Below are positions 25,147 to 35,541 of a stretch of DNA of 35,541 nucleotides, one piece after another. The position numbers were made by a program, and so were the translations under genes. A model generated the notes under the pieces. That model made no database searches. It was not told where the DNA came from and saw only the letters and a list, made by a program, of their open reading frames with translations. Within the stretch, counting starts at the first letter, position 1. The number at the start of each line of letters is the position of its first letter. Origin of the DNA: an uncultured Clostridia bacterium (lineage in GTDB: Bacteria; Bacillota; Clostridia; Oscillospirales; Acutalibacteraceae); the NCBI GenBank assembly GCA_944384995.1, contig CALWVN010000020.1:1-35541 (forward strand). Reading direction: 5' to 3'.

Positions 25147-25572
25147 ATGCAGGGAAAAGCGTCGGATATCATTCGACAAAAGCTGATCGATAACGGTGGG
25201 TCTGTGCAAATATTCTCTTTGCGCGGCAATCCGATTTATGTAACGTTATCGGCTGACCGTCAACATTTTGATTCTCCGCAGCTGCCGCCGCGGAAAAACG
25301 AAAGTTTTGCGATTTTTGACTGCGTGACGGATCTGCTGGATCAAACCGGCGGCAAAGCTCGCAAAGGAAACGGCAGAAATCATAAACTCGGTGAAGCAGG
25401 CTGCGAGACAGACACCGTTGTAGGTTATATCGGTATGACCTATGACGGACATCGAATCGGCGAATCGGTGCTCGACCCTGTTTTTGCAGTCGCGGCAATC
25501 ATGGATTGGGCAGGGATTGTGCACAACAAGAGAGGGTTTATTAAATATACCGCCGCCTATAAGAACGGATAA
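25147..25572 (+). CDS. Hypothetical protein between smpB and tmRNA
   Basis: A 141-aa soluble protein that I do not recognise. AAAGGATG lies before the ATG, so it looks expressed. The first half (IIRQKLIDNGGSVQIFSLRGNPIYVTLSADRQ) looks like a small winged-helix or beta-rich domain. The second half has a possible metal or nucleic-acid site: GNGRNHKLGEAGCETDTVVGYIGMTYDGHRIGESVLDPVFAVAAIMDWAGIVHN. Histidine, cysteine and aspartate residues are spaced as in some small nucleases, but the match is too loose to name. Base composition is less GC-rich than in smpB. The gene may have entered recently between smpB and the tmRNA gene. Confidence 0.65.
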   Translation: MQGKASDIIRQKLIDNGGSVQIFSLRGNPIYVTLSADRQHFDSPQLPPRKNESFAIFDCVTDLLDQTGGKARKGNGRNHKLGEAGCETDTVVGYIGMTYDGHRIGESVLDPVFAVAAIMDWAGIVHNKRGFIKYTAAYKNG

Positions 25573-25753: not shown

Positions 25754-26107
25754 GGGGATGAAAGGATTTCGACGGGGATGCTGCACCGTGGTAAGCGAGC
25801 AGCGGTGGGGTACCGCTTAAAACAGCCTCAGTTTATGAAAATAAACGACAAAGATCAAAAAGTACTTCTTGCTGCTTAATTAGCGGCAAGCGTTCCTCCC
25901 GGAGCACCGCGGCCGGGGCAGGGGCGTCATCAGCGGTAAATGTGCACGGGCAAGCGCCTCGTAACCCGTCACACACAACGAGGCTACCGAAGCAAGTTGC
26001 CAGCCGTACGGTGGCTTTCTAAGGGAACCTTTAACGCACGGCTACGCTCGTAGAAAGCTGCGGGAACGCGTTTTCGGACGCGGGTTCGACTCCCGCCATC
26101 TCCACCA
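25754..26107 (+). ncRNA. ssrA: Transfer-messenger RNA (tmRNA)
   Basis: tmRNA rescues stalled ribosomes and tags the unfinished peptide. The acceptor GGGGATG (25754-25760) pairs with CATCTCC (26097-26103), followed by ACCA. The T-arm GGACGCGGGTTCGACTCCCGCC is at the 3' end. The tag frame reads NDKDQKVLLAA then TAA (25844-25879) and ends in the LAA-type degradation signal. The codon before N, where translation should resume, reads ATA rather than the common GCA, so the exact resume point is uncertain. Length 354 bases is usual. Confidence 0.95.
26088..26107 (+). repeat. Direct repeat copy 1 (tmRNA 3' end, likely attachment site)
   Basis: GACTCCCGCCATCTCCACCA forms the end of the tmRNA gene and recurs exactly at 26237-26256. 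The 3' ends of tmRNA genes are well-known integration targets for tyrosine recombinases. Confidence 0.8.
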
Positions 26108-26236: not shown

Positions 26237-26256
26237 GACTCCCGCCATCTCCACCA
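26237..26256 (+). repeat. Direct repeat copy 2 (detached tmRNA 3' end)
   Basis: An exact 20-base copy of the tmRNA terminus, 149 bases downstream of copy 1. CGGG stands just before both copies. It looks like an attachment-site duplicate left by a small or mostly deleted insertion. I did not see a third copy within the window. Confidence 0.8.
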
Positions 26257-26345: not shown

Positions 26346-26380
26346 GGTCGGGCAAAGTTGACAATCGACTTTGCCCGACC
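26346..26380 (-). terminator. Terminator of the minus-strand module
   Basis: GGTCGGGCAAAGTTG (26346-26360) pairs with CGACTTTGCCCGACC (26366-26380), including one wobble, around a 5-base loop. On the minus strand ATTTT follows shortly after. It lies 25 bases beyond the stop of the 484-aa gene. The stretch 26257-26345 is AT-rich and I see nothing else in it. Confidence 0.8.
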
Positions 26381-26405: not shown

Positions 26406-27860
26406 TTATGAGTTTACAGTATCATAAAATTCAGGGTAATCGGCAAGATATACGTCGTAATTAGTATCTATAACTACTCGAATGTTTATTTCTGGACTTG
26501 TGTATAATTCTGTTTTTTCATAGCTAATCCCGTTATATGTAAATGCTGCATATGTTGCCGTGGTTTGATGTTCTTCTACTTTATTCCAGCGATTTAGGAT
26601 TTCATCCATATTCGTTATTGCGCCCGGCAGAGTTTCTAAATAAAGAAGGATAGGACGCATCATATATTCGTATCCATGATTTTTTCCGTTCCGAGACAAG
26701 AAATTCAAAATAACTTGATTATCATCAAAACTAGGTAATATTACGAATGTTTCATCATCAGAAACATGATATGGTATAAGTCCGTCTGCATTGAGGTCTA
26801 TCGTATCACTTGTAACCGGCAGCCCGGACGCTTTATATACATCCCGGTATTCATCCAAAGTCATTATAAAATCAGATAATTTATGCTTTGTCAGTTCGCG
26901 CTCGTCCGCTTGTTGAATCATGGATAGCTGTTCTTCGGTTGCTAATGAATACTTGCCGATTTTTATTACGTTTCCTTTGGAATCAAATTGGGGTGCGCCA
27001 TCATTAATACTCCATAATTCTCCCCAGATAGAAATATCGTAACTTAGCGGCTTTTCTTCAACCGTACTTTTTAATTTCACTGTGTTGTTATTGCTTTCGT
27101 CTATCTCATAGACTTTTTCATCATATATACCGTCTGATTTTATACTCCAAACCCGCATCTCTTCGCCTTGGTCAGACACAAATGTCTGACCTTGCAATTT
27201 CTCGTTCATTTCTTTCGCTTCCCGTGTAGAACGGTTTGTAACGATCTGATGGACTGAGAAAAAAGCTGCAATTCCCAAAATTACGCAAAGCAGAACGATA
27301 AATAGGGGAGACCTTACAATTTCCTTAAATGATTTTCTCGGCATTTTTGAAATGCCGGTTCCTGTTTTGTGAGACTGCTTTTCTCTGATTGTAATATTCT
27401 CCCACAAATCATTTACAAAATCCACAAGCGCTGCATCTGTTATCGGTTGAATCGTACCGTGTGCAATCAGCTTTTTAATATCGTCCGCATATTTTTCAGG
27501 AACATTGTTACCCGACCATAAAATGCGAAATTTGCAATTTCTGCAATAGCTCAAATCATACTTTGCAAACGCGCTGTCTATTGCAGTATAGGGTTCGCCC
27601 TCGGCGATTTCAGCAATATAATATTTATCCTTTCCCGGTTTCTTGATCCATACCAAATCGCCGGGATTCAGTGCAGATATATATTTTTTGGCACTGTCAT
27701 AATCCGAATCGGATTCGTCGGTTTCTTTGTTCGGCATCGAACCGATGCCGATGACCTGCCGCCGGAGACAAAAAACAAATTTTTCCTGTGATAACGCTAT
27801 GTCTTCGTTTCCCGCTCTGCTATCCTCAAGATTCATACAATAAACTGCTCGCTTTTCCAT
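26406..27860 (-). CDS. Membrane-anchored protein with a PUA/EVE-like N-terminal domain
   Basis: A 484-aa protein in three parts. Residues 1-150 share a domain with the neighbouring 175-aa protein: CMNLEDSRAGNED, FCLRRQVIGIG, LNPGDLVWIKKP, KYYIAEIAEGEP. I associate this pattern (CMNL, IGxG, GDLVW) with PUA/EVE-like readers found near restriction and defence genes. Residues 184-208 form one membrane span (SPLFIVLLCVILGIAAFFSVHQ), preceded by lysine/arginine-rich KMPRKSFKE, so the N-domain is probably cytoplasmic. Residues 209-484 would be outside and match nothing I know. AGGAGG lies 7 bases before ATG 27860. The gene is AT-rich against the surrounding chromosome, a sign of transfer. The function is unknown. 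Confidence 0.75.
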   Translation of the reverse strand: MEKRAVYCMNLEDSRAGNEDIALSQEKFVFCLRRQVIGIGSMPNKETDESDSDYDSAKKYISALNPGDLVWIKKPGKDKYYIAEIAEGEPYTAIDSAFAKYDLSYCRNCKFRILWSGNNVPEKYADDIKKLIAHGTIQPITDAALVDFVNDLWENITIREKQSHKTGTGISKMPRKSFKEIVRSPLFIVLLCVILGIAAFFSVHQIVTNRSTREAKEMNEKLQGQTFVSDQGEEMRVWSIKSDGIYDEKVYEIDESNNNTVKLKSTVEEKPLSYDISIWGELWSINDGAPQFDSKGNVIKIGKYSLATEEQLSMIQQADERELTKHKLSDFIMTLDEYRDVYKASGLPVTSDTIDLNADGLIPYHVSDDETFVILPSFDDNQVILNFLSRNGKNHGYEYMMRPILLYLETLPGAITNMDEILNRWNKVEEHQTTATYAAFTYNGISYEKTELYTSPEINIRVVIDTNYDVYLADYPEFYDTVNS

Positions 27861-27963
27861 GTGAAAACCTCCTATATTCTCATAGTTTATCAGACGCTTA
27901 CCCATTCTATTGTTATTATAGTGATAAAACTTCTTAAAAGAAAAAATGCAAACTACAGAGGTT

Positions 27964-28491
27964 CTATTTTTGGCAACCATTTGTATCTGCAGCCGATTCC
28001 AATTTCTTAAATAGTTCAATCGTTGCCCGTATGGTGTCCCCGCGGGAGGTATCATGCATTCGTTCCAGTGTGTGAACAGCCCTTATGCGTTTTCGACACA
28101 GCGCGCCGGACAGTTCATGCTCATCTACGGCATAATATGTTCCCCTACGGTATGCACAGATGTCAAACTTTTTTAGGCTGTTGCAGATCCCGGGAGTGTC
28201 ATCGGTGATTTTAACCAAGTAATATTCATTTGTCACAGGGGACTTTACCCAAACAAGATCACCCGCTCCCATGTTCTGTAAATTGTTCCTTGCCGCACGA
28301 TACCCAATGCTACCGTCATATTCCAGATCCGCTTTTTCTTTGTACGCATTCCATGTATTTACTACATCAGAAATACCCCAACCGATTGCTACCAAGCCCT
28401 TTTCTAGGCAAAGCTGAAATTTAAGCGCCTTGTCATGGTTGCGTTTCGAGCCGCCTCGATTATCCTTTAGGTTCATGCACCAAACGCGCAT
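27964..28491 (-). CDS. PUA/EVE-like single-domain protein
   Basis: A 175-aa soluble protein: MRVWCMNLKDNRGGSKRN, ALKFQLCLEKGLVAIGWGIS, YRAARNNLQNMGAGDLVWVKSP, EYYLVKITDDTPG. These segments align in order with the first 110 residues of the next gene, so the two are paralogues. The AIGWG and GDLVW pattern resembles domains that recognise modified bases in some restriction-type proteins; I infer this from the motif, not from a search. The ATG at 28491 follows GAGGGGG by 8 bases; an earlier ATG at 28512 precedes that site. It is transcribed away from the XRE gene, 103 bases before the 484-aa gene, and probably forms an operon with it. Confidence 0.75.
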   Translation of the reverse strand: MRVWCMNLKDNRGGSKRNHDKALKFQLCLEKGLVAIGWGISDVVNTWNAYKEKADLEYDGSIGYRAARNNLQNMGAGDLVWVKSPVTNEYYLVKITDDTPGICNSLKKFDICAYRRGTYYAVDEHELSGALCRKRIRAVHTLERMHDTSRGDTIRATIELFKKLESAADTNGCQK

Positions 28492-28572
28492 TTCGGTTTC
28501 CCCCTCATACAAGATTTGTGTTTCAATATTTGGCTTTTGTGATTATGCATCAGACAGAAAAGAGTATGTTCT

Positions 28573-28603
28573 CAAATATTGTCCTATTACAGGACGATAT
28601 TTG
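28573..28603. promoter_or_regulatory. Operator-like inverted repeat A
   Basis: CAAATATTGTCCT (28573-28585) pairs with AGGACGATATTTG (28591-28603), one T-G wobble, 5-base centre ATTAC. The core TTGTCCTATTACAGGACGA is related to repeat B at 28625-28649. It lies between divergent genes. Confidence 0.75.
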
Positions 28604-28624
28604 CTCGCCGCCATGTTACCATGA

Positions 28625-28649
28625 ATTTTGTCTTATGTCAAGACAAAAT
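28625..28649. promoter_or_regulatory. Operator-like inverted repeat B overlapping a promoter
   Basis: ATTTTGTCTT (28625-28634) pairs perfectly with AAGACAAAAT (28640-28649), centre ATGTC. Its core TTGTCTTATGTCAAGACAA matches repeat A at 14 of 19 positions, and one pair of changes keeps the symmetry (C-G versus T-A). It ends on the TATAAT (28649-28654) just upstream of the XRE gene, so bound repressor would block that promoter. Confidence 0.78.
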
Positions 28650-28669
28650 ATAATAAGGGTGGCTGAAAC

Positions 28670-28930
28670 TTGGCAAGGATCATAGATGGCGAAGCCATGA
28701 ATCTTATCGGCGATAATGTAAAAAAATACCGCAAAATGCGGCGCATGAGCCAGCAAAAGCTGTCCAACCGTTTGGAGCTTTTAGGGGTGTATGTTTGCAG
28801 AGGATCGGTTTCCCGAATTGAGGACAAATCCCGCACGGTGACCGATATTGAGCTTTGTGCGATCGCAAAGGCGCTGGATATTTCGGTTTCGGAGCTGCTG
28901 AACGGCAATCCTTTCGATGAAGAGGAATAG
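28670..28930 (+). CDS. XRE-family transcriptional regulator
   Basis: An 86-aa one-domain regulator. The helix-turn-helix is clear: IGDNVKKYRKMRRMSQQKLSNRLELLGVYVCRGSVSRIEDKSRTVTDIELCAIAKALDISVSELL. This resembles YozG/immR-type repressors. The start is probably TTG 28670 (AAGGGTGG upstream); ATG 28697 would remove nine residues. TATAAT lies 15 bases before the start. Two related inverted repeats lie between it and the divergent 175-aa gene, so autorepression and control of the paired minus-strand genes is likely. Base composition is closer to the chromosome than the neighbouring AT-rich genes. Confidence 0.85.
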   Translation: MARIIDGEAMNLIGDNVKKYRKMRRMSQQKLSNRLELLGVYVCRGSVSRIEDKSRTVTDIELCAIAKALDISVSELLNGNPFDEEE

Positions 28931-32365: not shown

Positions 32366-32680
32366 TTATGTATCGTCTACACTTTTAAGGAACAGCCTTT
32401 TTTCAAACCCGCCTTTTTTTGCGGCCTTCTCCGCCTTGATTTTCAGTACGTCCGAAAGCGTACTGCCCTGCGCCTGTGCCAGTGCATCTATAACCTCCAG
32501 TATGTCGGCAAGCTCCTCTAAATCTGCGCTGTCCAAATATTCTCCGACTTCCTCACAAAGCTTTTTCTTCAGCGCCGTTTGGAACTGTGTTTCGTCCAAT
32601 ACGGAAAAACAGGCGGTTTGACCGTTTGCTTTTATGATTTCGGGAATGCGGTCCCGAACCAGTTTGTTATAGGGTTTCAT
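32366..32680 (-). CDS. MazG-superfamily NTP pyrophosphohydrolase-like protein
   Basis: A 104-aa all-alpha protein: MKPYNKLVRDRIPEIIKANG at the start, then KKKLCEEVGEYLDSADLEELADILEVIDALAQAQG. The EExxE...ExxD pattern (EEVGEYLD, EELADILEVID) is the metal site of all-alpha NTP pyrophosphohydrolases that remove odd nucleotides. The start at 32680 has GGGAGGG upstream; the open frame extends further but is not family-like. Its first 14 bases overlap the end of the phosphatase gene upstream, so the two are translated together. Confidence 0.85.
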   Translation of the reverse strand: MKPYNKLVRDRIPEIIKANGQTACFSVLDETQFQTALKKKLCEEVGEYLDSADLEELADILEVIDALAQAQGSTLSDVLKIKAEKAAKKGGFEKRLFLKSVDDT

Positions 32681-33316: not shown

Positions 33317-34516
33317 TTAACCTGATTTTCTCCGCTTTTCCGGCGTACCAATATTCTTGAAATCAATGATTTTCGCCATCTGTTCCGCCGCCCGGTCATA
33401 GCTGGCGTGGGTGTAGACATTCAGTGTTACTCCCACATCAGAGTGTCCCATCACATACTGCAAGGTTTTTATATCCATACCAGCGTTTGCCATATTCGTA
33501 CAAAAAGTATGGCGGAACACATGGGGCGTGATATGCGGCAACGGCTTATCCGGGTACAGCCTCTTATACTTTTTCATCGCCCAGCGCATTTCATTTTCGA
33601 TATGTAACGCTACCTTGGGCTTGTCGTCTTTATCCAGCAGCAGAAAGCCGCTGTACCCGTCTACAATGATTTCCGTCTTTATCTTCTTGCGGCGTTCAAG
33701 GATATTGTTCAGACTTTGATAGACTTCCTCTGTCATTGGAATAAAACGGCAGCCACACTCCGTTTTGGTTTTCTCGACATAATACTTTCCGCCCCGTTCC
33801 CGGACAAGCTGGTGGTCTACCCGGATTCGCCGGTTTTCAAAATCCAAATCACTTTTTGTAAGGCCGCAAAACTCACTGACACGCATACCCGTTCCCAGCA
33901 GCACGACAAATTCATCATAATACTTGGTGTAGGTTTTGTCCTCCCGGATAAAGCCCATCCAAATCTCCTGCTGTTCCTCCGTCATGGCAATCCGCTTCTG
34001 TGAGTCATTGGGAACCACGTCCACTAATTTGAAATCGAAGGGATTTCGGCGGATAATATCCTCGTTGTATGCCATCTGAAAAGCGGGTTTCACAACGCCC
34101 CTGACGCTTGTAATGGTGCTGTACCCTTTCCCATCACTGTGGAGCTTCATAATCCACTTTTGCGCGTCTGATACCTTAATATCCCTTATCTGCCGGTAGC
34201 CAAAATCTTCTCTCTTAATCAGGTTCAGAACAAAATTGTAACCGACTTTGGTATTGTAGCGCACGCCCTGTTTCAAGCTGATATAGCGTTCCACAAGGGC
34301 AACCACGGTTGCCTTTCCAGCAGCATAGTCAATCCCTTCATTAAGCTGCTTCTGGATTGCTTTTTCCTTTTCCCGCAGTTCCTTCAAATCAGAGGAATAG
34401 ATGGTCTGCCGTTTGCCTCGAATGTCTGTATAGCGGTACTGATAAATCAGGTCTTTTCTCTGGCTCTCTCCTGTCCGCAGGATTCTTCCTTTATGGTCTT
34501 TGCGTTTCTCGGACAT
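33317..34516 (-). CDS. int: Tn916-type tyrosine integrase
   Basis: A 399-aa tyrosine recombinase that inserts and excises the element. The N-terminal arm-binding domain (MSEKRKDHKGRILRTGESQRKDLIYQYRY) closely follows Tn916 Int. A SAM-like core-binding domain covers about residues 70-160. The catalytic set is complete: R212 in GTGMRVSEF, K251 in KTKTECG, H332 and R335 in HVFRHTFC, H358 in MGHSD, and nucleophile Y368 in LNVYTHAS. ATG 34516 follows AAAGGAG by 7 bases and matches the Tn916 start; a TTG two codons earlier is not needed. The gene should be functional. Confidence 0.96.
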   Translation of the reverse strand: MSEKRKDHKGRILRTGESQRKDLIYQYRYTDIRGKRQTIYSSDLKELREKEKAIQKQLNEGIDYAAGKATVVALVERYISLKQGVRYNTKVGYNFVLNLIKREDFGYRQIRDIKVSDAQKWIMKLHSDGKGYSTITSVRGVVKPAFQMAYNEDIIRRNPFDFKLVDVVPNDSQKRIAMTEEQQEIWMGFIREDKTYTKYYDEFVVLLGTGMRVSEFCGLTKSDLDFENRRIRVDHQLVRERGGKYYVEKTKTECGCRFIPMTEEVYQSLNNILERRKKIKTEIIVDGYSGFLLLDKDDKPKVALHIENEMRWAMKKYKRLYPDKPLPHITPHVFRHTFCTNMANAGMDIKTLQYVMGHSDVGVTLNVYTHASYDRAAEQMAKIIDFKNIGTPEKRRKSG

Positions 34517-34547
34517 TGTCAAACTCCTTTCCGTGATGGAAAGAGCC

Positions 34548-34578
34548 TTGATATGACATAATTATTGTATCATATCAA
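34548..34578. repeat. Inverted repeat between int and xis
   Basis: TTGATATGA (34548-34556) pairs with TCATATCAA (34570-34578). Outer pieces (GATGG near 34536 and CCATC near 34594) pair too, giving a large imperfect hairpin. It may regulate int relative to xis or serve as a recombinase/Xis site. It contains ATACAAT on the minus strand, a possible -10 for int. Confidence 0.6.
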
Positions 34579-34601
34579 AGGCCGTTTTCCCATCACAAAT
34601 T

Positions 34602-34796
34602 TCAAATGGAATGCTCCTGCTCAATGTATTGGTCGAACAGGCGGCGTTTTATCAACCGCTTGTTTCCTACCCACAAAACGAACCGGCAATTCTGTTCACT
34701 GGTTAGATCACGCAGTTTATTGATACCAATTCCCGAATACGCCGCAGCTTCTTCTAAGGTCAAATTACTCTTTTCCCAAATCGGGACTTCTTTCAT
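34602..34796 (-). CDS. xis: Excisionase (Tn916 Xis-like)
   Basis: A 64-aa basic winged-helix protein that directs the integrase toward excision. The sequence VPIWEKSNLTLEEAAAYSGIGINKLRDLT and WVGNKRLIKRRLFDQYIEQ follow the Tn916 Xis layout. ATG 34796 follows AAAGGAG by 7 bases; the longer open frame upstream overlaps the ATPase gene and is not family-like. It starts 14 bases after the stop of the ATPase gene. Confidence 0.92.
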   Translation of the reverse strand: MKEVPIWEKSNLTLEEAAAYSGIGINKLRDLTSEQNCRFVLWVGNKRLIKRRLFDQYIEQEHSI

Positions 34797-34810
34797 AGGC
34801 AATACTCCTT

Positions 34811-35541
34811 TCAGTCGGTAATCAGTTTCTTCATGCTCTCCATTTTCCGCTGCGCGGTTTCCTGCCGGAAGTTGTCGCCGGTAAAGCGTACCGGGACGCA
34901 CATGGAAAGCAGGCGGTCATAAATCCGGGAATGGGCGGTGTCCTCCGGGTTCCGCAGGTCGTCCAGCGTGAGGTTGGTCGTGACGATCAGCGGCTTGCCG
35001 CTGCGGTAACGGCTGTCAATCACATTGAAAACCTGTTCCAGCCCGTACTCGGTGCCGCGCTCCATGCCGAAGTCGTCAAGGATAAGCAGCGGATAGCGGC
35101 AAAGGCGGGAAATGTACTCGTTGCGCCCCTCAAAGCTGGCGGCAAGGTCATTGAGGATAAGGGCAAAGTTCGTCATGTGGACGGGGATTTCTTTCTCCAT
35201 GAGGGCGTTTGCGATACAGCCCGCAAGGTAGCTTTTCCCGGTTCCCACGCCGCCCCAGAACAGGCAGCCGATATTGTCGGCTCGCATATCCTCCCAATGC
35301 TCCACATACCGGCGGGCAATCCCGGCCTGCGGGTTCCTGCCGTTGTCGTTCTCAAAAGTCCAGTCCCGCATGGTGGGGTCGGTAAAGCCCCGGCGTTTCA
35401 GTTCCTCCACGGTGTCAAGGTGCCTGCGCCGCTTCTCGGCGGCCTCCCGTTCCTCGCGGGCGGCTCTCTGGCAGTCGCACTCTGCCGGGTGGCGGTCGCG
35501 CCCGAAGATAGCGGCCTTATCCGGCGCAAAATAGGCTTCTT
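34811..35541 (-). CDS. DnaC/IstB-like ATP-binding protein (partial at the 5' end)
   Basis: An AAA+ ATPase of the DnaC/IstB helicase-loader type. The visible part starts before residue EAYFAPDKAAIFGRDRHPAECDCQ, runs through a charged linker (REEREAAEKRRR) and MRDWTFENDNG, and has Walker A FWGGVGTGKSYLAG and Walker B LLILDDFGMERG, then VTTNLTLDDL and a box with RIYDRL. The frame stays open to the window edge with no start that fits, so the N-terminus lies outside. A GTG at 35410 is internal. This protein probably loads a helicase for replication of the excised element. It is more GC-rich than int. Confidence 0.88.
   Translation of the reverse strand, partial: EAYFAPDKAAIFGRDRHPAECDCQRAAREEREAAEKRRRHLDTVEELKRRGFTDPTMRDWTFENDNGRNPQAGIARRYVEHWEDMRADNIGCLFWGGVGTGKSYLAGCIANALMEKEIPVHMTNFALILNDLAASFEGRNEYISRLCRYPLLILDDFGMERGTEYGLEQVFNVIDSRYRSGKPLIVTTNLTLDDLRNPEDTAHSRIYDRLLSMCVPVRFTGDNFRQETAQRKMESMKKLITD

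Follow-up and report, generated by a model that had tools for sequence, protein, structure and literature searches.

What is encoded at positions 26406 to 28930 of contig CALWVN010000020.1, a 35,541-nucleotide (nt) stretch from an uncultured Clostridia bacterium of the Acutalibacteraceae that was analysed whole and is called the window below? Two genes on the minus strand, here named A and B, face a plus-strand gene for a small XRE-type repressor, and the products of A and B share an N-terminal domain whose predicted fold resembles the EVE and YTH domains of the PUA superfamily. The genes and features of the locus are the following.

26406..27860, minus strand: gene A, 484 amino acids (aa), with a predicted cytosolic reader-like domain, one membrane helix and an outer domain
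27366..27860, minus strand: A residues 1-165, predicted EVE/YTH-like reader domain (PDC-S02 profile, Foldseek, alignment)
27252..27308, minus strand: A residues 185-203, predicted single transmembrane helix (hydropathy 2.79; six Lys or Arg before it versus four after it)
26409..27251, minus strand: A residues 204-484, predicted extracytoplasmic domain of about 280 residues, low predicted model confidence (pLDDT)
27964..28491, minus strand: gene B, 175 aa, predicted soluble stand-alone EVE/YTH-like reader domain with the GIGW motif kept
28579..28597, unstranded: putative operator O2, TTGTCCTATTACAGGACGA, 49 nt from O1
28613..28641, minus strand: predicted B-A promoter, TTGACA, 17 nt, TAACAT, extended (TG before the second hexamer)
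28628..28646, unstranded: putative operator O1, TTGTCTTATGTCAAGACAA, within which the predicted B-A promoter has its -35 box
28670..28930, plus strand: XRE (HTH_3) repressor gene, TTG start
26346..26380, unstranded: hairpin 3' of A with 16-nt arms, a possible terminator

As the initial annotation had recognized, the two minus-strand proteins are related in their N-terminal parts (33% identity over 123 residues, BLASTP E 3e-16) and have the motifs CMNL, IGxG and GDLVW in common; what it missed is that A runs on past the shared domain into a membrane helix and a C-terminal part of about 280 residues. A and B lie 103 bp apart as an operon-like pair, and 178 bp separate B from the divergent XRE gene. 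Genes were called with a simple open reading frame (ORF) script. The upstream starts in the ORF list of the initial annotation are corrected to ATG 28491 for B and ATG 27860 for A; the XRE start at TTG 28670 is supported because orthologues show MARIIDG-like codons there. The pair is AT-rich, as had been noted, with a G+C content of 38.7% (A) and 46.0% (B) versus 56.0% across window positions 1-25700. Within their own genome, which is 86% complete, A and B each match only themselves and each other.

The repressor carries an HTH_3 domain (PF01381, 25.1 bits, cut-off 23), and alongside this profile match the region upstream of its gene holds palindromic putative operators, which together place it among the predicted XRE repressors. 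These twin operators, correctly picked out in the initial annotation, are inverted repeats at 28573-28603 and 28625-28649. At up to one mismatch their core, TTGTCYT-N5-ARGACRA, is confined to these two sites within the window, a count reached in none of 100 shuffles. The core reappears 5' of XRE orthologues in other genera. In the five closest of these (L134-L138; L numbers denote loci and G numbers genomes), which are 60-72% identical to the window protein and also come from other genera, O1 is kept as TTGTCTTGACATARGACAA, L136 and L137 differing at the first base; a second site follows 49 nt on, found by regular expression in L134 and L135 and read from the sequence in the others. The embedded TTGACA belongs to the best divergent-side promoter in L134, L135, L137 and L138 (11-12 of 12); for the window and L136 the script picked another promoter pair, 10 of 12. 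In an upstream stretch of this kind the core would arise by chance with a probability of about 6e-6. The strict operator pattern was present in 11 of 30 loci surveyed for the window XRE. Two sites scoring like the B-A promoter occur in the stretch versus 1.2 expected, and the promoter is supported mainly by its place in O1. No description of the operator core TTGTCTTGACATARGACAA, which was derived here, emerged from a literature search that included no query aimed at the motif. From this footprinting we strongly infer that the XRE protein regulates B and A through O1 and O2.

What is the shared domain? The sole named family that matches A or B in Pfam, NCBIfam and PADLOC scans is the PADLOC profile PDC-S02 (phage defence candidate, singleton 02), at E 1.7e-12 for A and 1.5e-18 for B. 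The matches cover the first half of the 299-position profile, ending at position 145 (B) and 165 (A), and the profile matches all 11 members of an alignment (A3) that includes both proteins. A Pfam scan of A and B at E 1 gave no fitting family, NCBIfam gave four weak matches over the helix region of A, far under cut-off, and Pfam scans of A, L005, L024, L034 and L037 returned nothing, or weak matches under cut-off; for the first half of PDC-S02 itself, no family was found in Pfam or NCBIfam. An AlphaFold2 model of A, built with 10 other sequences including B, is fairly confident over residues 1-165, where two ten-residue blocks stand at pLDDT 54, and poor in the outer part (mean pLDDT 55.7); a model of B, built with 21 other sequences, has a pLDDT of 90.8. 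Foldseek gave YTH domains of yeast MRB1 and Mmi1 as the 21 best PDB chains for the A model (best E 6.3e-3, probabilities 0.84-1.00 across the 21). For the B model the best PDB matches were 2gbs (E 0.05), which we take to be an EVE protein, the restriction endonuclease VcaM4I, and YTH domains, with unrelated chains intermixed from rank 9 on. VcaM4I is described as an EVE-HNH restriction endonuclease (PMC7897488) and YTH as the closest relative of EVE (PMC7641849). By predicted fold we regard the shared domain as EVE/YTH-like, the match being remote yet consistent. A structure search of viral models returned an uncharacterised 336-aa phage protein as a good match (E 5.7e-6), and sequence searches of solved structures with alignments A2, A4 and A5, with L011 and with the outer domain of A yielded none, or isolated weak matches (best E 0.002) that were taken as chance.

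Two motif positions of the domain differ in how strictly they are kept. The GDLVW Asp is present in all 22 aligned domains. The GIGW Trp, presumably the equivalent of the YTH cage Trp, is present in 21 of the 22, B included; the sole exception is A, which has Ser, and L024, which lies outside the 22-row alignment, is also without it.

The layout of A recurs. Reader, helix and outer domain follow one another in eight genes (window A, L005, L024, L033, L034, L037, L038 and L049), which we call reader-TM (transmembrane) genes. All eight proteins have one hydrophobic helix, with six to eight Lys or Arg in the 20 residues before it versus one to four in the 20 after it, and therefore the reader is most likely cytosolic. 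By this positive-inside rule A most likely has its N-terminus inside the cell, and its C-terminal part of about 280 residues is predicted to lie outside. Three sets of outer domain can be told apart: that of L037 (n=5), L005 and L024 (39% identical), and A alone. Compared by profile, the sets show no overall relation (probabilities 1.1, 5.4 and 0.2; the sequences are few and remote kinship is possible), and the outer-part stretch that A has in common with the L005 set is 23 residues by the membrane (E 0.0072). Between A and L005 the readers share 46% identity. In these comparisons, then, the reader is conserved while the outer part varies. An outer domain of the L005/L024 type was found in none of 68 family genomes, a sample outside which the carriers' own genomes lie and whose empty result is therefore uninformative, and one of the L037 type in two of the 68, both known, together with one weak match in one of them.

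Four reader-TM genes (L033, L034, L037 and L038/L047) face a different XRE protein of 68 aa, with sites like TATCCCATWWTGGTATA; at these loci the promoters score 10-12 of 12 and an operator-like site lies inside them. Overall, five of the eight reader-TM loci face an XRE gene (the window via B), two do not (L049, L041), and L005 is cut by the contig end. The start of the reader-TM gene of L038/L047, two matches in G017, is in a different frame from the rest, the result of either mutation or assembly error. At L041 (787-6048) a tyrosine recombinase, a reader-TM gene, a small TM protein, an RCC1-repeat protein and a small protein with IGW and GD motifs stand in a row. A palindrome-like site lies directly 5' of the reader-TM gene in L024 (ACATAATGTGGATTATGT) and, in similar form, in L005 (AACGTAATGTAGATTATGT), and a second copy of the L024 site is found 3' of the recombinase gene.

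Reader-TM genes are one of four kinds of relatives of the shared domain. The second kind is the stand-alone reader: window B, L020/L039, L035 and L028, the last with a stop inside the match. The stand-alone reader of L035 (3528-7618) overlaps by 4 nt the start of a gene for a 1207-aa BspA-type leucine-rich repeat (LRR) surface protein. The third kind consists of PDC-S02-like proteins that have the second half (L010-L015, L052, L058-L060); by eye this half shows an E...QxK spacing like that of Mrr-type PD-(D/E)xK nucleases, and Pfam scans of four full-length members gave no nuclease match. A full-length homologue of this kind, 32.9% identical over 306 aa, is encoded at CP069348.1:119560-120444, in the record of Clostridioides phage pCD1602_4. 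The fourth kind, found with the PDC-S02 profile in three genomes, is McrB-type GTPases preceded by a related domain (L021, L022, L023 and L026); L021 is McrB-like by phmmer (3e-87), L022 by NCBIfam (3e-90), and L023 and L026 by eye. The defence link that had been attached to the domain is supported in so far as the domain forms the first half of PDC-S02 and precedes McrB GTPases, but no nuclease family was found in A or B (Pfam, NCBIfam and PADLOC scans) or in the window neighbours scanned. One further candidate relative, L009, was rejected, its alignment (E 4e-4) lying over a membrane helix of a zinc-ribbon-like protein.

The distribution is patchy, and the locus, whose twin operators lie at its promoter, is regulated, as the initial annotation had inferred. 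Own genome included, the domain is carried by 4 of 39 genomes of the genus, among which the neighbours differ, by 8 of 398 of the family and by 2 of 391 in a class sample; the PDC-S02 profile matches in 15 of 295 genomes of the order and in 0 of 14 control genomes. Searches of plasmids and phages for relatives of A or B gave no match, and 26 stretches from viral contigs searched with alignment A2 were not confirmed. Other carriers are Candidatus Howiella intestinavium and a sheep omasum genome, and because of these the host is probably a gut clostridium. No second genome showed a tandem reader pair. Most homologues stand singly and are scattered, which by the initial annotation's own test counts against its module, although a divergent XRE recurs in five of seven testable reader-TM loci.

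We tentatively propose, giving it somewhat less than an even chance, that the locus is a portable XRE-repressed cassette whose cargo is a two-gene operon of EVE/YTH-like readers, one soluble (B) and one membrane-anchored (A). The XRE protein would bind O1, which lies before the XRE gene and includes the B-A promoter's -35 box, and O2, 49 nt on, and would thereby repress B and A and probably also itself. Some signal would lift the repression, and B and A would be made. A would then be anchored in the membrane, its reader domain facing the cytosol and its 280-residue domain reaching out of the cell, and the reader domain would recognise a modified base in nucleic acid, most likely from a phage or other mobile element. 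Since the predicted pocket of A would be altered by loss of the conserved Trp, B would be the likelier binder, and reading would proceed by B, or with B. Base reading would in this way be coupled to the membrane or surface and not to a nuclease. The trigger and the surface outcome are our guess. Put briefly, the locus would be a repressible accessory cassette that serves a membrane-anchored modified-base reader. The proposal draws on the profile and fold matches of the domain, on the reader-TM architecture of eight genes, on the conserved operators and promoters, and on the patchy distribution with changing neighbours.

Several points weigh against this proposal. The fold assignment is remote and base binding only predicted: neither model has a Foldseek PDB match below E 0.001, and none of 22 members of the domain family has a Pfam EVE, YTH or PUA match at E up to 10; the PUA/EVE-like assignment of the initial annotation is supported, if remotely, by predicted fold and not by sequence families. 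The conserved Trp is lost in A and in L024. The outer domain of A has no Pfam family, no NCBIfam model near cut-off and no known relative among the sequences searched. The B-A promoter is tied with another 10-of-12 pair in the window. Finally, XRE orthologues drive unrelated genes elsewhere, and hence the regulation is uninformative on defence.

How do the proposed cassette and its parts compare with known systems? A and B have the N-terminal domain of PDC-S02, but B is without the second half, and in A a membrane helix and an outer domain take its place. The literature consulted on PDC-S02 offers lists and counts and no mechanism; among 39 Pseudomonas aeruginosa strains carrying it, 59.0% are given as phage-resistant (PMC10855318). 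EVE and YTH domains of the PUA superfamily, as in VcaM4I and the YTH readers, are the best fold matches of the A and B models, yet the A and B family is without their sequence-profile match. As in type IV restriction, a related domain sits before the GTPase in the four McrB-type proteins, whereas the window module has neither GTPase nor nuclease. HTH_3 and twin palindromic operators overlapping a divergent promoter are as in other small XRE repressors with divergent partners; the reader pair as cargo is not. According to PMC7641849 and PMC11090510, EVE/YTH domains are combined with nucleases, with GTPases and with RNA factors, and an McrB-type GTPase bears an FtsB-like membrane domain. An EVE/YTH reader with a single helix and an outer domain was not found in the literature searched, as far as its accessible text goes, and the main text of PMC7641849 on EVE contains none of the words 'transmembrane', 'signal peptide', 'secreted' and 'extracellular'. 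EVE/YTH-type readers of modified bases are familiar as targeting modules that direct nucleases and GTPases, and as intracellular RNA regulators; a recurring inner-face reader joined to an outer domain under a repressor would, if the proposal is true, connect the sensing of modified nucleic acid with the cell surface. A testable fold hypothesis also results for the PDC-S02 first half, which has no Pfam or NCBIfam family that we could find.

The proposed reader cassette can be widened to a new class of transmembrane sensors, in which a cytosolic EVE/YTH-like reader, one helix and exchangeable outer domains are carried as cargo of XRE switches, a signal passes from inside to outside upon contact with foreign modified nucleic acid (a surface change or membrane effect), and A and B act as reader and partner with one pocket lost. 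This generalization we hold to be distinctly doubtful.

Among the rivals, an ordinary switchable surface-protein cassette survives best. Here the exported part of A would act, in the envelope or in interaction with the gut, and the reader-like domain would be a cytosolic regulatory or tethering module; we consider this somewhat unlikely but a serious contender. Evidence for it comes from the cargo of the XRE switches. Divergent genes were present in 19 loci of the survey of the 68-aa XRE, which comprises the best 30 of 51 listed matches with loci (one better-scoring match has no locus), and 16 of the 19 partners are membrane or exported proteins versus 15 of 74 head-to-head genes (Fisher 4e-7); once the pair of reader-TM loci is set aside, the count is 14 of 17 (Fisher 3e-6). 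The 74 background genes were drawn from the window plus as many as 21 longer loci, predominantly though not exclusively of the same family, and 'exported or TM' denotes a hydropathy threshold of 1.8 that misses some lipoproteins (L127). In the same survey the script missed the XRE in L105, L116, L120, L122, L123 and L126 (12 identities or fewer) and recovered just a portion of it in L117 and L118, and the strict operator pattern occurs in 9 of the 30 loci; L104 (G017) is not among these nine, its sites having been read by eye. Similarly, among the five orthologues nearest to the window XRE, the partners of three are a CHAP protein (L134), a DUF6591 lipoprotein (L135) and another exported protein (L138); L136 has a 95-aa ORF there, and in L137 no divergent gene was called. 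The overlap of the L035 stand-alone reader with a BspA-type LRR surface gene points the same way. However, the excess of exported partners is weak for the window XRE family as a whole (8 of 20, p 0.08), SLOG-type proteins are among the cargo (L139, and by likeness L141), and between A and L005 the reader is conserved where the outer domains diverge, a hint that the reader is important.

Both XRE types are portable switches, and reader proteins are one kind of their cargo. A reading of the divergent XRE as a mark of defence was rejected as unsupported, because the same XRE types face unrelated genes elsewhere. Since their cargo can be swapped and is often exported, the footprinted switches suggest a layer of regulation that acts on surface proteins in these Clostridia. 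The upstream regions of L133-L141 show the portable switch, with operator TTGTCTTGACATARGACAA, in several genera (CHAP, DUF6591 lipoprotein and SLOG-type cargo).

We consider it improbable that the locus is a self-contained anti-phage system acting by abortive infection, in which infection would relieve the XRE protein, B and A would sense modified phage nucleic acid, and A would damage the membrane. The domain is common to PDC-S02 and McrB-type proteins, a full-length PDC-S02-like homologue lies in a phage record, and the distribution is patchy. The best PADLOC matches of the XRE protein are restriction-modification control proteins (E 1.6e-8), although helix-turn-helix (HTH) profiles are general and so is the XRE cargo. 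As to neighbours, the PDC-S02-like gene of L052, from an Acidobacteria record, adjoins SNF2/NOV_C helicase and DUF499/HEPN_Swt1 genes; the contexts of EVE described in PMC7641849 include an operon of a nuclease-fused protein with DUF499. Beside the reader-TM genes L033, L034, L037 and L049, most of 10 genes scanned with Pfam are metabolic or transport genes, the exceptions including an NYN/LOTUS gene near L034 and a DUF559 gene near L049. The NYN domain is, we assume, of nuclease type. The DUF559 ORF (L049:7024-7425; mREase_II 3.3e-7), about 570 bp 5' of the reader-TM gene on the opposite strand, gave the one match when 10 neighbours (three in the window, seven in five relatives) were scanned with PADLOC; the other nine gave none. 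In the kind of neighbourhood survey that the initial annotation suggested, the XRE gene thus recurs in five of seven testable reader-TM loci, and a PADLOC match is seen in one of 10 neighbours. To our knowledge, moreover, one helix with a large outer domain is unlike the known multi-helix effectors that kill through the membrane, which counts against an abortive-infection role.

A toxin-antitoxin-like unit, with the XRE protein as antitoxin and repressor and A or B as toxin, is very unlikely. The divergent pair has its operators at a common promoter region, EVE domains are described in toxin-antitoxin-like operons (PMC7641849), and NCBIfam antitoxin HTH profiles match the XRE protein, if weakly and under cut-off (TIGR03070 E 0.0015). 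Type II toxin-antitoxin systems are obligate pairs, whereas these HTH genes pair with unrelated partners, and the reader-TM genes L049 and L041 have no divergent XRE, which contradicts a strict toxin-antitoxin pair. Least credible of all is a decayed PDC-S02 remnant that has lost its second half: A and B do match only the first half of the profile, but their reading frames are long and open, the reader-helix-outer-domain layout recurs in eight genes (L038 with a frameshifted start), and the promoters are at or near consensus.

The module lies just downstream of the gene for transfer-messenger RNA (tmRNA), as follows.

25754..26107, plus strand: tmRNA gene, integration site
26237..26256, plus strand: second copy of the tmRNA 3' 20-mer, an att-like scar

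The integration scar reported at the tmRNA gene is there: the last 20 nt are duplicated exactly, the repeat lying 149 bp on (shuffles mean 0.00, n=100, three mismatches allowed). The site is an integration hot spot. The same scar is present in G880, whose region is 97.5% identical and holds another gene, with similarity resuming at window position 32591, and in G868 the repeat region is reached by an ORF carrying the zinc ribbon of a serine recombinase (PF13408). G880, G868 and G878 carry the scar and gave no domain match in the genus search; an origin of the module by tmRNA integration was accordingly rejected as unproven. A 141-aa ORF at 25147-25572, which lies between smpB and the tmRNA gene, has no Pfam, NCBIfam or PADLOC match. 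At the other end, positions 33317-35539 encode a Tn916-type tyrosine integrase (PF02920, PF00589) followed at the contig end by an ORF that is DnaC-like by eye, and this is the edge of a second mobile element.

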